From contig JAQXJB010000004.1 in the NCBI GenBank assembly GCA_029008095.1, positions 1 to 64,000 of the forward strand: a DNA stretch of 64,000 bases, written 5' to 3'. This DNA comes from Clostridiales bacterium. Lineage in GTDB: Bacteria > Bacillota > Clostridia > Oscillospirales > Oscillospiraceae. The translations under genes and the position numbers were made by a program. Positions 53,499 to 58,700 of this stretch are shown here, one piece after another. The stretch's first letter is position 1. The number at the start of each line of letters is the position of its first letter. The notes beneath the pieces are model-generated. The model worked only from the letters and a program-made list of their open reading frames with translations, made no database searches and had not been told where the DNA came from.

Positions 53499-53630
53499 AG
53501 TGTGAAGTTTCACACTATATTCTTTAAAAGCCCATCGCCTCGCCCTTCGGGCAACCGGCGATGATGGCTAAAATCCTCCATGCGGAGGAGATTTTTAAAA
53601 CTATTTGTGCGGTGCTGCCGCATGGAGGAT
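53499..53630 (+). promoter_or_regulatory. SD-sequestering dispersed leader element, copy B (upstream of the HD gene)
   Basis: Order is as in copy A: palindrome AGTGTGAA-G-TTTCACACT, a linker, hairpin ATCGCC/GGCGAT with inner GCCC-TTCG-GGC, then the 13-bp stem ATCCTCCATGCGG (53573-53585) / CCGCATGGAGGAT (53618-53630). The SD GGAGGA of the HD gene is inside the 3' strand; ATG follows at 53635. The stem and its spacing to the start codon match copy A exactly. Confidence 0.8.
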
Positions 53631-53634
53631 TATT

Positions 53635-54294
53635 ATGTTAACATACGAAGAGATAAAGAACAACGAAACCATAAGAACCTATATCCGTAAGGCCGACCAG
53701 TCGCTGGTGGCTCTGGGCTTCACCGAGCACAGCTTCGCCCACGTTACCCTTGTGGCGGAGAACTGCGGCTATATACTCAAGACTATGGGATACTCTGACC
53801 ACGAGGTGGAGTTGGGCAAGATAGCCTCATACCTCCACGATATCGGCAACATCGTCAACCGCTTGGATCACTCCCAGAGCGGCGCGGTCATGGCCTTTCG
53901 TATACTGGATAACCTTGATATGCCCCCCGAGGACATCGCGGAGATAGTCACCGCCATCGGCAATCACGACGAGGGCACCGGCACCCCCGTGAGTCCCATC
54001 GCAGCAGCGCTCATTCTGGCCGACAAGTCCGATGTGCGCCGCAGCCGCGTCCGCAACCCGGACACCACCTCCTTTGACATCCATGACCGGGTGAACTATT
54101 CGGTCACCAAGTCCCAGCTCAAAATAAATGAGGAAAAGACCCTCATAAAGCTCAAGCTCTCAGTCGACCCCCACTACGGCTCCGTGATGGATTACTTTGA
54201 GATATTCATGCAGCGCATGATACTCTGCCGCAAGGCGGCCGAGTTCCTCGGTCTGCAGTTCAAGCTAATCATCAACGAGCAGCAGCTTATATAA
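53635..54294 (+). CDS. HD-domain phosphohydrolase
   Basis: Cytoplasmic HD-superfamily protein of 219 aa. Metal ligands are His in SFAHVTLV, the HD pair in ASYLHDIGNIVNRLDHSQ (about residues 68-75) and His in AIGNHDEG, with Asp in LILADKSDVRRSR, so the site is complete. Substrates of such stand-alone HD proteins are nucleotides or phosphate esters; none is assigned. ATG 53635 is fixed by GGAGGA; the ORF track's extension translates the leader element. The gene is monocistronic. Confidence 0.87.
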   Translation: MLTYEEIKNNETIRTYIRKADQSLVALGFTEHSFAHVTLVAENCGYILKTMGYSDHEVELGKIASYLHDIGNIVNRLDHSQSGAVMAFRILDNLDMPPEDIAEIVTAIGNHDEGTGTPVSPIAAALILADKSDVRRSRVRNPDTTSFDIHDRVNYSVTKSQLKINEEKTLIKLKLSVDPHYGSVMDYFEIFMQRMILCRKAAEFLGLQFKLIINEQQLI

Positions 54295-54310
54295 GCCGCA
54301 AAAACATCAA

Positions 54311-54344
54311 GACCGGGATGCCCTTGCATCCCGGTCTTTTGGCG
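54311..54344. terminator. Bidirectional terminator
   Basis: The 11-bp stem GACCGGGATGC/GCATCCCGGTC with loop CCTT is followed by TTTTGGC on the plus strand; it also closes the convergent C_GCAxxG gene. Confidence 0.85.
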
Positions 54345-54740
54345 TTACACCCTATATTTTGCAACAGTTTCTTCCAGAAGGTCGGCCACCATAAGCAGCA
54401 GCTCGTAGCAGCGGATATCATCCTTCTTATATTTGGGGACGAGTTCATCGCAGAGCGTGCTTCCAAAGCGCTTTTCAAACTCGCCGATAAAGCCGCCGGT
54501 CACGCCGTGCGCGGTTTCCTTGTCCACATTTACGCAGATTAACTTTCCAAGGGCGGCGACAGAGCCGGAGATAGCTCCGCAGGTGATACCGAAGCCCATG
54601 CCGCCGCCAAAGCCGCGCATAAGGCTTATCTCATTTTCACTGAGCCCCATGCCGTATTCTTCGTTTGCTGCCAGAAGCATACTCTCAGCGCAGTTGTGTC
54701 CCTCGTCCAGAAAATATCTTTTGACCTTATCTCTCAGCAT
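54345..54740 (-). CDS. C_GCAxxG_C_C family protein
   Basis: Soluble protein of 131 aa with the family signature in order: HNCAESMLLAANEEYG near the N-terminus, GFGGGMGFGITCGAISGSVAALG in the middle and single Cys residues in STLCDELVPKYKKDDIRCYELL. The family is linked to redox or metal binding in anaerobes. AAGGGG lies upstream of the ATG, and a CCGCGC/GCGCGG hairpin abuts it. It is monocistronic and divergent from the hydrogenase-sensor operon. It is a more canonical member than the protein at 39679. Confidence 0.85.
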   Translation of the reverse strand: MLRDKVKRYFLDEGHNCAESMLLAANEEYGMGLSENEISLMRGFGGGMGFGITCGAISGSVAALGKLICVNVDKETAHGVTGGFIGEFEKRFGSTLCDELVPKYKKDDIRCYELLLMVADLLEETVAKYRV

Positions 54741-54858
54741 ATGTATTCCCCTTTCCGCCGCGCTGCGCGGCCTTTCATGAAAAATTATATCACCACGTTT
54801 TGCTCAAGACAATGATTATTAAACAAAGTGTAAAATTTTCACCGGAGGTCGATTTCTA

Positions 54859-54887
54859 TTGATTTTTTCGCGGTGAAATTATATTAT
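54859..54887 (+). promoter_or_regulatory. Promoter of the hydrogenase-sensor operon
   Basis: TTGATT, 17-bp spacer, TATTAT. The start site near 54894 puts the attenuator at the very 5' end of the RNA. Confidence 0.7.
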
Positions 54888-54898
54888 TGTAATATAAA

Positions 54899-54975
54899 TC
54901 ATGAGTGGGGAAATGGAATTTCCTCTGCTTTCCCCATGAATCGCGCCGTATTACGCGTTCATGGGGTATTGTTTT
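54899..54975 (+). promoter_or_regulatory. Transcription attenuator in the hydrogenase-sensor leader
   Basis: The terminator is CCCCATGAATCGCG (54932-54945) / CGCGTTCATGGGG (54954-54966), a 13-bp stem with one bulged T, followed by TATTGTTTT. A competing upstream GGGGAAA (54907-54913) can pair with TTTCCCC (54929-54935), which includes the first bases of the terminator stem. A small GGAAAT-GGA-ATTTCC hairpin can form in the terminated state. No plus-strand gene lies upstream that needs a terminator here. Confidence 0.7.
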
Positions 54976-54998
54976 AATAAAGCTAATGGAGAATGGTT

Positions 54999-56747
54999 AT
55001 GAAAGTTATAGAAAACAGTATGCAGGAATCTATCGCCGTCTGCAAGGTCATCGACACAAACGTTGCCAACTGTCAGGACTGTTACCGTTGTGTCCGCTCC
55101 TGCCCGGTGAAGGCCATACGCATCACCAACGGACAGGCCCACATAGAGCAGGAGTTCTGCATACACTGCGGCACCTGCGTGCGCCAATGTCCCCAGCAGG
55201 CGAAGTACATCGTCAGCACTCTGGACGCGGTCAAGGAGCTTCTGGCCTCCGGTCGCCCGGTAGCCGCCAGTGTGGCCCCCTCCTTTGCCGCGGCCGTTGA
55301 GCCCGGACTCGTGTATAAGATACCCACCGCCCTGCGTATGCTGGGCTTCAGCAAAGTTTCGGAGACTGCCGAAGGCGCTAAGCTGGTGTCCGACCGCAGT
55401 CTGGAATGCTTGCCTAAGGGCAGTATATGCACCACATGTCCCGCCGTGGTCAGCTATGTTGAAAAATATCACCATGAGGCTCTGAACCGCATGATACCCG
55501 TGGTATCTCCAATGGTGGCTCACGGCCGCATGATAAAAGAAGCCTTCGGCGAGGAATTCGCCGTGGTATTCATCGGCCCCTGCGCCGCGAAAAAGGCCGA
55601 GGCCTTGCGCCCGGAAAACCGCGACGCCATCGACGCGGTCATCACCTTCCGCGAGCTTTTCGACTGGCTTGAAGAGGCAAAGCTGGATATTGCCGATCTT
55701 CCGGACGGAAGCTTTGACTTCACCGGTCTGGCTGACGGCACCTTGAAGAACGCCCGTCTTTTCCCGGTGGACGGCGGTATGCTCAAGACCTGCGGCAAGG
55801 CCAGCGATGGCACAAGCTCCGAGGTCATGTCTCTCTCCGGCGCCAAGCAGGTCACATCCTTCTTCGATGTTGACCCCGAAAAGGTGGAATTCAAGCTGGT
55901 CGAGCCCCTGTTCTGCCCCGGCGGATGCATAGACGGCCCCGGCTTCACGGGTCTGGGTAATATATATTACCGCAAGAACGCCGTCATTTCCTATGCCGAG
56001 AGCGCCGGTGAATATGACGGCAAGCGCTTCGGCAATCAGGAAAATGTGGACACCGAGCCCTGGTTCATCCCTCTGGAGACCCGGGCAGATGAACCGGTAA
56101 GCGACGAAGCCATTCAGCAGGTATTCCAGAAGACCGGCAAGACCGATCCGCGCAACCAGCTCAACTGCGGCGCCTGCGGCTACGCCTCTTGCCGTGAAAA
56201 CGCCATCGCCGTCGTCCGCAACATGGCCGAGCCTGAGATGTGCATACCCTACATGCGCCGCCTGGCCCAGCAGCGCGCCGACCGCATAATCGAGACTACT
56301 CCCACTGCGGTGGTCATCGTGGACAAGGATCTGAAGCTTATCCATATGAACCCTGCCTTCCACAAGATGTTCATGTGCAGCAACTCCATCCTTGGCCGCC
56401 ACATCTCCTACATATTCGACGCCCGGGACTTCGAAACACTTGCCAGCAGCGACACGGACGAGATGGAGGCCGTGCGTACCTATTACGGCACTCGCTATCA
56501 CCTCACTCTCTACGCAATGCGCAGCGAGGAACAGTATGTCGGCATGTTTACCGATATTTCCCACATTAAGCTGGACGAGAGTCAGATGCACCTCATTGAG
56601 CGCCAGCTTCTCGTAAACGCCAGAGAGCTGCTGGAGCATCAGATCAGCTTCTCTCAGGAAATGGCGCACCAGCTCGGACGAAACACGGCAAAGACGGAGG
56701 AGCTGGTAAAGCGTATGCTTGACCTCTATGAGGACAGGGATCTTTGA
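54999..56747 (+). CDS. [FeFe]-hydrogenase-like sensor with Fe-S and PAS domains (HydS-like)
   Basis: Protein of 582 aa. A 2x[4Fe-4S] ferredoxin domain is seen at residues 25-75 (CQDCYRCVRSCP, CIHCGTCVRQCP). The H-cluster domain has L1-like CTTCPAVV (about 148), L2-like GPCAAKKAEA (about 190) and L3-like LFCPGGCIDGPGF (about 307). A Fes4-like CGACGYASC lies near 390 and a PAS domain at about 430-530. Thr replaces the proton-relay Cys of the usual TSCCP loop, as expected for a sensor rather than a fast catalyst. GGAG precedes ATG 54999. The phosphatase downstream supports a signalling role. Confidence 0.85.
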   Translation: MKVIENSMQESIAVCKVIDTNVANCQDCYRCVRSCPVKAIRITNGQAHIEQEFCIHCGTCVRQCPQQAKYIVSTLDAVKELLASGRPVAASVAPSFAAAVEPGLVYKIPTALRMLGFSKVSETAEGAKLVSDRSLECLPKGSICTTCPAVVSYVEKYHHEALNRMIPVVSPMVAHGRMIKEAFGEEFAVVFIGPCAAKKAEALRPENRDAIDAVITFRELFDWLEEAKLDIADLPDGSFDFTGLADGTLKNARLFPVDGGMLKTCGKASDGTSSEVMSLSGAKQVTSFFDVDPEKVEFKLVEPLFCPGGCIDGPGFTGLGNIYYRKNAVISYAESAGEYDGKRFGNQENVDTEPWFIPLETRADEPVSDEAIQQVFQKTGKTDPRNQLNCGACGYASCRENAIAVVRNMAEPEMCIPYMRRLAQQRADRIIETTPTAVVIVDKDLKLIHMNPAFHKMFMCSNSILGRHISYIFDARDFETLASSDTDEMEAVRTYYGTRYHLTLYAMRSEEQYVGMFTDISHIKLDESQMHLIERQLLVNARELLEHQISFSQEMAHQLGRNTAKTEELVKRMLDLYEDRDL

Positions 56748-56762
56748 TTGGCGGTGAAGTGA

Positions 56763-57911
56763 TTGCGATTTTTTGAAGATATTATCCAGCAGGTCACCAA
56801 GACCGGCTACCGCGTCTGCGGCGACCATGTAATGTGCTACCGCACGGTGGCGGTCACCTATCTGGTGGTGGCCGATGGCATCGGCTCCGGCGTTTACGCC
56901 AATATCGCCGCCATCACCTGCGCCGAGCAGCTCATGGGGCTGTTCAAAAGCTCCATCCAGTTCAAGGCAGGCTGCGAGATGGTGGCCGACTCCATGCACC
57001 GGGCCAAGATCGAAGACGCACCCTATGCGGCGTTCACCTGTGTGAAGATAAGCAGCGACGGCAGCTACGCCATCTTTTCCTATGAAGCTCCGGAACCCAT
57101 CCTTATCACCGGCGGCTTCGCCAAGGTGCTTGAGCCCCGGTATTACAAGGCCAAGTACGACTATGTTGGCGAGATATATGGCCACCTGAATCGGGGCGAT
57201 TCCATCCTCGTTTTCAGCGACGGCGTCGACCAGGCCGGCATGGGCAACGGCATGGGTATGGGCATCGGCTCCGAGGGCGTTGTGAAATGGCTGGAAAAGC
57301 AGAAAACAATGGGCACGCCCGAGCCGGATTTCCCAACTATACTTAAAAATCTCACTGATATGACCGCCTCTGTTTCCGGCGGAGTTCACGCCGACGATAC
57401 CACCGCCGTCATTCTAAAGTGCCGTGAGGCAAGAGACCTTATAATAGCCACCGGCCCTCCCAGCTCAAAGCAGAAGGATAACGAATTTGTCAACCGCCTG
57501 GTCGGGGCCTATGGCAAGAAGGTCATCTGTGGCTCCACCACCACGGATATCATCGCCAAGGTGATGGGCGCGAAGGTAACTTCCGTCCGCTCCTCCGAGC
57601 CCAACAGTCCGCCGGAGTATCACATAGACGGCATCGACCTTGTTGCCGAGGGCGCGATGACTCTGAGCCAGGCCTGCAATATAATCAATGAGCCGCTGGA
57701 GGCTATTTCCGGCAGCGGCGTCGTGGAACGTTTCTGCCGCATGATGCGTGAAAGCGATATCATCACCTTTATGCTTGGCACGGCTCTCAATTCCGCCCAC
57801 GGAGACCTGCTCTTCAAGCAGCTCGGCGTACGCCCGCGCCGTGAATCTGTCGTTACGCTGGCCAAAAGCCTTACCAAAATGGGCAAGGTGGTTATCATAG
57901 AGGATTATTGA
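56763..57911 (+). CDS. SpoIIE-type PP2C phosphatase
   Basis: Ser/Thr phosphatase of 382 aa. PP2C metal-site motifs are VVADGIGSG (about residue 38), VFSDGVDQAG (about 158) and GGVHADDTTAV (about 210). The C-terminal ~150 residues (IIATGPPSSKQKDNEFVNRLVGAYGKKVICGSTTTDIIAKV) form an extra domain common in homologues beside HydS-like proteins. The start is TTG, 15 bp after the sensor stop, with a weak GGTGAAG site, so translation may be coupled. It probably converts the sensor state into dephosphorylation of an unknown protein. Confidence 0.85.
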   Translation: MRFFEDIIQQVTKTGYRVCGDHVMCYRTVAVTYLVVADGIGSGVYANIAAITCAEQLMGLFKSSIQFKAGCEMVADSMHRAKIEDAPYAAFTCVKISSDGSYAIFSYEAPEPILITGGFAKVLEPRYYKAKYDYVGEIYGHLNRGDSILVFSDGVDQAGMGNGMGMGIGSEGVVKWLEKQKTMGTPEPDFPTILKNLTDMTASVSGGVHADDTTAVILKCREARDLIIATGPPSSKQKDNEFVNRLVGAYGKKVICGSTTTDIIAKVMGAKVTSVRSSEPNSPPEYHIDGIDLVAEGAMTLSQACNIINEPLEAISGSGVVERFCRMMRESDIITFMLGTALNSAHGDLLFKQLGVRPRRESVVTLAKSLTKMGKVVIIEDY

Positions 57912-57974
57912 CGAAGCCCAGGCGGCACAGACGCAATTGTGCGATACTGCCTTATATAAGAAAGGATGAAGAGA

Positions 57975-58661
57975 ATGTCTGTTTGTATAAGCTGTGGCAA
58001 CGAAATTGCCGAAAACGTAAACTTCTGCATGCATTGCGGCGCTCCTCAGGCAGCGACTGCCGCGGAGGAACCGAAAGAGATATGCGCCGAGGATACCGCT
58101 GAAAAGAGCAGCGAGACCATTGAAGCCGCCGATGATGTCTCCACCGAGCTGACGCCCACCGTTGAGGAGGCCGCCGAAGCTCCCGCCGAACCGGTATTCA
58201 TTCCCGAGCCCACCCCTGCCGAAGAGAAGAATGCACCCGCCTTCGAGTCTGCGGTTATCCCCCCTGCTCCTGCGTATGAGCCGCCAAAAACCGCCTCCGT
58301 CACCTATGCCGAGCCTGCCGGCGAGAAATCCCGACCGGAATTCACTCCTACGCCCGTTCCTGCGGAGGATCCCGAGAAGCCCGGTCCCAAGAGCAAATGG
58401 GGCATTATGAGCACCTGGGGCTATGTGGGCGCCACTCTGCTGATGTCCATCCCCATTATCGGTTTTATCATCACAATAGTCTGGGCCTGTGGAGGCTGCC
58501 GCAAGTATGCCAAGCGCAACTACGCCCGCGCCACGCTTATCTTCCTTTTTGCGGGCATTATCCTCGCCGTTGTCTCCGCCCTGATACTGCGCTTTATATT
58601 CCCCGAGCTCATCGTCTGGGCATTTGAATACCTGAATTCCGGATATACTATTATTTTCTGA
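57975..58661 (+). CDS. Zinc-ribbon membrane protein
   Basis: Protein of 228 aa: an N-terminal zinc ribbon (CISCGNEIAENVNFCMHCG, residues 4-22), a ~110-residue Glu/Pro/Ala-rich disordered linker, and a C-terminal membrane part with two segments (WGYVGATLLMSIPIIGFIITIVWACGG; ATLIFLFAGIILAVVSALILRFIF). ATG 57975 is chosen because AAAGGA lies 8 bp upstream. It lies 63 bp after the phosphatase and may share its transcript. Function unknown. Confidence 0.75.
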   Translation: MSVCISCGNEIAENVNFCMHCGAPQAATAAEEPKEICAEDTAEKSSETIEAADDVSTELTPTVEEAAEAPAEPVFIPEPTPAEEKNAPAFESAVIPPAPAYEPPKTASVTYAEPAGEKSRPEFTPTPVPAEDPEKPGPKSKWGIMSTWGYVGATLLMSIPIIGFIITIVWACGGCRKYAKRNYARATLIFLFAGIILAVVSALILRFIFPELIVWAFEYLNSGYTIIF

Positions 58662-58668
58662 TACAAAA

Positions 58669-58700
58669 AATCGCACCGCTTTCACGGTGCGATTTTTTAT
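58669..58700. terminator. Bidirectional terminator before ricT
   Basis: AAATCGCACCG/CGGTGCGATTT with loop CTTTCA is followed by TTTATT on the plus strand and by a T-run (from AAAAAA) on the minus strand. Confidence 0.9.

Follow-up and report, generated by a model that had tools for sequence, protein, structure and literature searches.

The leader of the hydS operon at 54894-54975 is probably a short three-state transcription attenuator, which is off by default and is turned on by whatever holds its antiterminator, the hairpin between strands 1 and 3 (hairpin 1:3). The window, i.e. the whole stretch of DNA that was analysed, comprises 64,000 nucleotides of contig C4 of the draft genome G000 (2.27 Mb, 96% complete). 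Its nearest named relative is the Oscillospiraceae MAG RGIG7195 from water-buffalo caecum, a sister species. Two of the five genomes of the genus encode hydS, namely G000 and RGIG7195 (locus L009), and the two proteins are 86% identical. The operon behind the leader is composed as follows:

54999-56747, plus strand: hydS, 582 aa, of the sensory [FeFe]-hydrogenase type (Pfam; alignment with the organism's own HydA proteins and with homologues)
56763-57911, plus strand: SpoIIE/PP2C-type phosphatase, 382 aa (PF07228), immediately following hydS in those homologous loci that were read
57966-58661, plus strand: zinc-ribbon protein with hydrophobic C-terminal segments (PF13240), kept in RGIG7195
58669-58694, no strand assigned: bidirectional terminator closing the three-gene operon

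An earlier note on this DNA had read these genes as a HydS-like sensor, a phosphatase and a zinc-ribbon protein, and the Pfam domains found bear this out. In HydS, two [4Fe-4S] domains, Fe_hyd_lg_C, a further FeS domain and a PAS domain are recognized (PF02906, PF04060, PF13188, Fer4). When aligned to the organism's own HydA proteins, it keeps one cysteine next to P148 and others at 195, 306 and 310. The proton-shuttle cysteine is replaced by Thr, while Gly is found at the M353 position and Leu at the M497 position; here, the equivalence to CpI numbers was set by motif and no CpI sequence was aligned. The motifs CTTCP, GPC and EPLFC stand against TSCCP, MPC and EIMAC in the organism's second HydA. 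The residues equivalent to CpI C299, M353 and M497 are known to be altered in sensory enzymes (PMC10055695). Judged by its sequence, the product of the first gene looks like a sensory [FeFe]-hydrogenase of the PAS type (group C/HydS) with putative H2 sensing and signalling, and the sensory role of HydS-type hydrogenases is still putative even in characterised members (PMC8924675). The PP2C gene behind hydS agrees with Thermoanaerobacterium, where a serine-phosphatase gene, hfsC, lies beside hfsB (PMC11837493), and deletion of hfsB alters fermentation in several thermophiles (PMC5707799). The organism contains two other [FeFe]-hydrogenases: the HydA of a HydABC-like cluster (L049:6253-8109), with the L1 motif TSCSPGW, and a second HydA-like protein (L050), with TSCCPGW.

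The leader itself consists of a promoter and three hairpins, followed by the ribosome-binding site:

54859-54887, plus strand: sigma-A-type promoter TTGATT-17-TATTAT, with the same hexamers and spacing in RGIG7195 (76% identity)
54903-54930, plus strand: hairpin 1:2, early and terminator-compatible, seen when the full leader or an early prefix is folded to minimum energy; equivalent in RGIG7195
54905-54937, plus strand: hairpin 1:3, the antiterminator, GGGGAAA/TTTCCCC extending to 13 pairs
54932-54966, plus strand: intrinsic terminator 3:4 (-20.7 kcal/mol), with its U-tract TATTGTTTT at 54967-54975
54988-54991, plus strand: Shine-Dalgarno GGAG of hydS, outside the switch (TGGAG in RGIG7195)

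The succession of promoter and intrinsic terminator with a 13-pair stem was correctly recognized in the earlier note. By score alone the case for the promoter is weak (9/12, with 8 promoter-like sites in a 7 kb scan versus 4.1 expected). It is, however, kept in RGIG7195, and transcription of the leader would start just behind it. The terminator stem, CCCCATGAA-T-CGCG / CGCG-TTCATGGGG, contains 13 pairs and one bulged U and begins 45 nt 3' of the -10 box. It is detected by an energy-based scan, whereas a rule-based scan misses it because the bulged U splits the stem. Only 1 of 5000 shuffles matches the fold of this hairpin, and termination is predicted to take place at 54932-54975. The U-tract ends 23 bp before the hydS ATG (54999), which leaves no space for a second promoter, so that hydS needs readthrough.

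No plus-strand gene further upstream requires this terminator, as had been claimed before. The upstream region holds three features:

53605-54294, plus strand: HD-domain gene with its own bidirectional terminator at 54309-54338
54345-54740, minus strand: divergent C_GCAxxG_C_C redox-protein gene (PF09719 / TIGR01909), its linkage to hydS kept in RGIG7195
54820-54842, no strand assigned: conserved block TAAACAAAGTGTAAAATTTTCAC between the two divergent promoters, a candidate operator or UP element

The HD-domain gene is self-terminated and the minus-strand gene, which has its own promoter at 54812-54784, lies in between; the hydS leader terminator is therefore not needed by any plus-strand gene upstream. 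The block at 54820-54842 is identical in 20 of 23 bases in RGIG7195, versus 47% identity in 54741-54819. It is AT-rich (TAAACAAArTGTAAAATTTTC) and is possibly an operator for both divergent units; no convincing further copies or regulon of it were found in the genus. The C_GCAxxG_C_C / hydS / PP2C / zinc-ribbon block as a whole (window 54345-58661; L009 4336-8573) is inverted between the two species relative to its neighbours, i.e. a PSP1-type gene, the HD gene and a histidine kinase. Despite the inversion, the divergent pair and the shared promoter region remain together in both species.

Strand 1, GGGGAAA (54907-54913), can pair with TTTCCCC of strand 3 (54929-54935) at -15.3 kcal/mol in the fold of 54893-54944, as the earlier note had proposed, and the pairing is kept in RGIG7195. 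Antiterminator and terminator are predicted to be mutually exclusive, as they share the 5' arm of the terminator. The two-state switch claimed earlier is correct in this pairing but incomplete in its arrangement: a third pairing was overlooked, in which GGGGAAA pairs with ATTTCC/CTC just downstream. This hairpin 1:2 appears in the full-leader fold and is compatible with the terminator, giving three states. The whole leader folds at -31.3 kcal/mol (z -4.5) and beats 200 of 200 shuffles; with the antiterminator core enforced, -23.6 kcal/mol is obtained. When successive prefixes are folded, the order is 1:2, then 1:3, then 1:2 together with 3:4, in the window species as in RGIG7195, a result that is a minimum-energy prediction and not a kinetic simulation. 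Among the intergenic-looking terminators of the window, only 54932-54966 has on its 5' side an alternative hairpin that is strong (-14 or better) and makes 6 or more contacts with the terminator arm.

From these folds the following mechanism can be proposed. As the polymerase leaves the promoter, strand 1 would first pair with strand 2. Subsequently, strand 1 would switch to strand 3, generating the antiterminator. Once strand 4 is made, the 3:4 terminator would form and hairpin 1:2 would re-form. The terminated state is favoured by about 8 kcal/mol, and by default transcription would therefore end after about 80 nt, with hydS expressed at a low level. If some factor held 1:3 or delayed 3:4, the polymerase could go on to transcribe all three genes of the operon, which would make the leader conditional. 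A redox- or H2-linked protein or ligand is a candidate for this factor and is compatible with the genes of the operon. The leader RNA itself has no obvious aptamer domain.

The main rival to the attenuator is a constitutive leaky terminator, in which a fixed readthrough would dampen the operon to a low, constant sensor expression and the alternative pairing would be incidental or would tune efficiency. We regard it as possible, though clearly the less likely reading. The U-tract TATTGTTTT is interrupted, which agrees with leakiness, and cellulolytic Clostridia are reported to set expression ratios by internal terminators of partial efficiency (PMC9045158). Taken by itself, moreover, the antiterminator of the window species exceeds chance only modestly: its energy is reached by 4.5% of shuffles. 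A leaky terminator, however, requires no conserved strand 1, while in RGIG7195 the 1:3 hairpin stays in register, shows a double compensatory change and has a stronger fold, its energy being reached by only 0.3% of shuffles.

The RGIG7195 leader (z -5.6) forms an antiterminator of -18.8 kcal/mol and a terminator of -19.7 kcal/mol, the latter with a G-G mismatch in its stem and the tail ATTTTTG. Both the antiterminator and the terminator retain 12 of 13 pairs in register. In each, one pair has changed on both sides in a compensatory way (from UA to CG in columns 3-33; from CG to UA in columns 29-63), and a few changes are one-sided. When the partners are slid by 1 to 3 columns, 23-64% are paired; two leaders yield no covariation statistic, and about half of the shuffles reach the observed pairing values. 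The conservation map is more telling: the leader segments are 77% and 69% identical, whereas the flanking spacers, both with indels, reach 33% on the 5' side and 47% on the 3' side.

The range of the leader was tested with a covariance model, R1, built from the two leaders (G000 and RGIG7195) and run over 401 family genomes. The two leaders score 96 and 86 bits and everything else at most 28 bits; the weak matches, of which the best dozen or so were examined, are ordinary terminators, unrelated hairpins and coding DNA. Among the family genomes, the structure was thus recovered in G000 and RGIG7195 alone. No further leader copies were found in the organism's own genome. Rfam gave no gathering match in the window (best local E-values 1.8 to 4.3, with scores far below cut-off), also with relaxed thresholds, in line with the earlier remark that no riboswitch or attenuator is known to be described for this family. 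No attenuator or riboswitch for a hydrogenase operon of this type was described in the open-licence papers searched by title and abstract.

The more distant hydS genes (35-57% identity) were drawn from family and order samples. The earlier note had held that homologues lacking the structure would speak against the switch. Just one other close hydS is preceded by a leader of its own, and there the structure is present, while the hydS genes of 35-57% identity are without it and lie mostly inside other operons. For most of them, the upstream neighbour in the same direction is a rex or HydA-type hydrogenase gene; since hydS directly follows rex or a catalytic hydrogenase gene at these loci, no 5' leader is expected there. 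G150 and G206, where hydS apparently starts its own unit, have no such leader. The leader is thus not a general device of hydrogenase-PP2C operons. Upstream of the distant hydS of G206 (L015:1321-1470), some 150 nt of leader contain a hairpin and six consecutive T, with a fold z of only -1.5. As this fold is not exceptional, an independent attenuator at that position was dropped.

In relatives (loci L006, L007 and L013), hydS-PP2C is preceded, immediately or with one gene in between, by a gene for a Rex-type redox repressor, a proximity that links Rex to the hydrogen-sensor operon. One Rex upstream of a relative's hydS was confirmed by Pfam, and rex was not found in the five genomes of the window's genus, for which Rex control was accordingly discarded. 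A bolder form of the attenuator reading can be built on this distribution. The leader would then belong to a new class of small regulatory RNAs confined to this gut genus. Its antiterminator would be stabilised by a protein or ligand linked to redox state or H2, which might be what the HydS-PP2C pair itself puts out, and RNA control would have replaced that of Rex after the loss of rex. This extended version is speculative and we consider it improbable.

A separate gene for a trans-acting, two-hairpin small RNA of about 80 nt, with hydS expressed by readthrough, is an unlikely alternative. Such a gene would account for the own promoter, the two stable hairpins and the terminator, all kept in two species. 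It has no need, however, of the antiterminator overlap, and the element is found solely before hydS, in 2 of 401 family genomes. A terminated leader could also serve as small RNA and attenuator alike.

Alternatively, CCCCATGAA-17-TTCATGGGG may be read as a palindromic DNA operator, located 3' of the promoter, to which a repressor would bind. The dyad is near-perfect and has the same 17-nt spacing in both species. This spacing is nevertheless long for a dimer site, the dyad of RGIG7195 is interrupted by the G-G mismatch, and the U-tract together with the RNA-type compensatory change suits a terminator better, which renders an operator very unlikely.

Least probable of all is ribosome-mediated attenuation via a leader peptide: in the window species, an ATG at about nt 12 of the RNA does open the frame MSGEMEFPLLSP* across strands 1 to 3, but it has no Shine-Dalgarno, is separated from the predicted start by just a few nt and corresponds in RGIG7195 to a TTG frame of unrelated sequence with no ATG, and there is no diagnostic codon run. 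A leader-peptide attenuator was rejected, as no conserved translatable leader ORF with regulatory codons is present.

Several further candidates were discarded. Both species have GGA in the hairpin 1:2 loop and again at the Shine-Dalgarno, so ANGGA loops are present with no CsrA partner: PF02599 is absent from all five genomes of the genus (control searches were positive), and CsrA control was rejected. ANTAR target RNAs consist of two hairpins whose hexaloops carry A at position 1 and G at position 4. The loops observed here (GGA / CGGACU, AUUUCC / CUUUUC and CCGUAUUA / GCUU) do not fit this pattern. Reiterative transcription was rejected on the geometry of the predicted start site, and no consistent pairing that would sequester the Shine-Dalgarno was found.

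An attenuator before a free-standing hydS-PP2C operon would add a layer of control with a readable output to the HydS-type system, which is suspected to determine how much H2 and ethanol gut and biofuel bacteria make. In relatives hydS is linked to rex or to a hydrogenase gene, whereas in a genus in which no rex was found it is probably leader-controlled; this contrast offers a testable case of regulatory replacement.

Leaders with a terminator and an antiterminator are of a well-known kind, and the hydS leader matches no described family of them. It most resembles the RAT-type leaders of the LicT/SacT/BglG family: these are also short, their antiterminator overlaps the 5' arm of the terminator, the terminator is the energetic default, and an RNA-binding factor would be required for the on-state. 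Unlike them, the hydS leader has no Rfam match of any kind and its operon no gene for an RNA-binding protein. Transcription-terminating riboswitches and T-boxes share the mutually exclusive antiterminator and terminator in the 5' leader, whereas the hydS leader is only about 80 nt long, with no aptamer-like domain and no Rfam family. In pyrG-type reiterative attenuation, a G-rich strand near the 5' end likewise pairs with the C/U-rich terminator arm; the G-run of the hydS leader, in contrast, lies about 20 nt (window) or 9 nt (RGIG7195) 3' of the -10 box and not at a conserved start site. As with the partial internal terminators of cellulolytic Clostridia (PMC9045158), a terminator within the unit could set the expression level, but the hydS terminator stands ahead of all genes of its unit and is accompanied by a competing hairpin that is conserved. 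On the protein side, HydS of the window shares its PAS domain and the altered residues surrounding the H-cluster with HydS of Thermotoga maritima and Ruminococcus albus and with HfsB of Thermoanaerobacterium, whose Hfs operon also contains a serine-phosphatase partner gene. What sets the window apart is that its hydS starts its own operon with a leader, while in most family relatives read the gene lies behind rex or a HydA-type gene.
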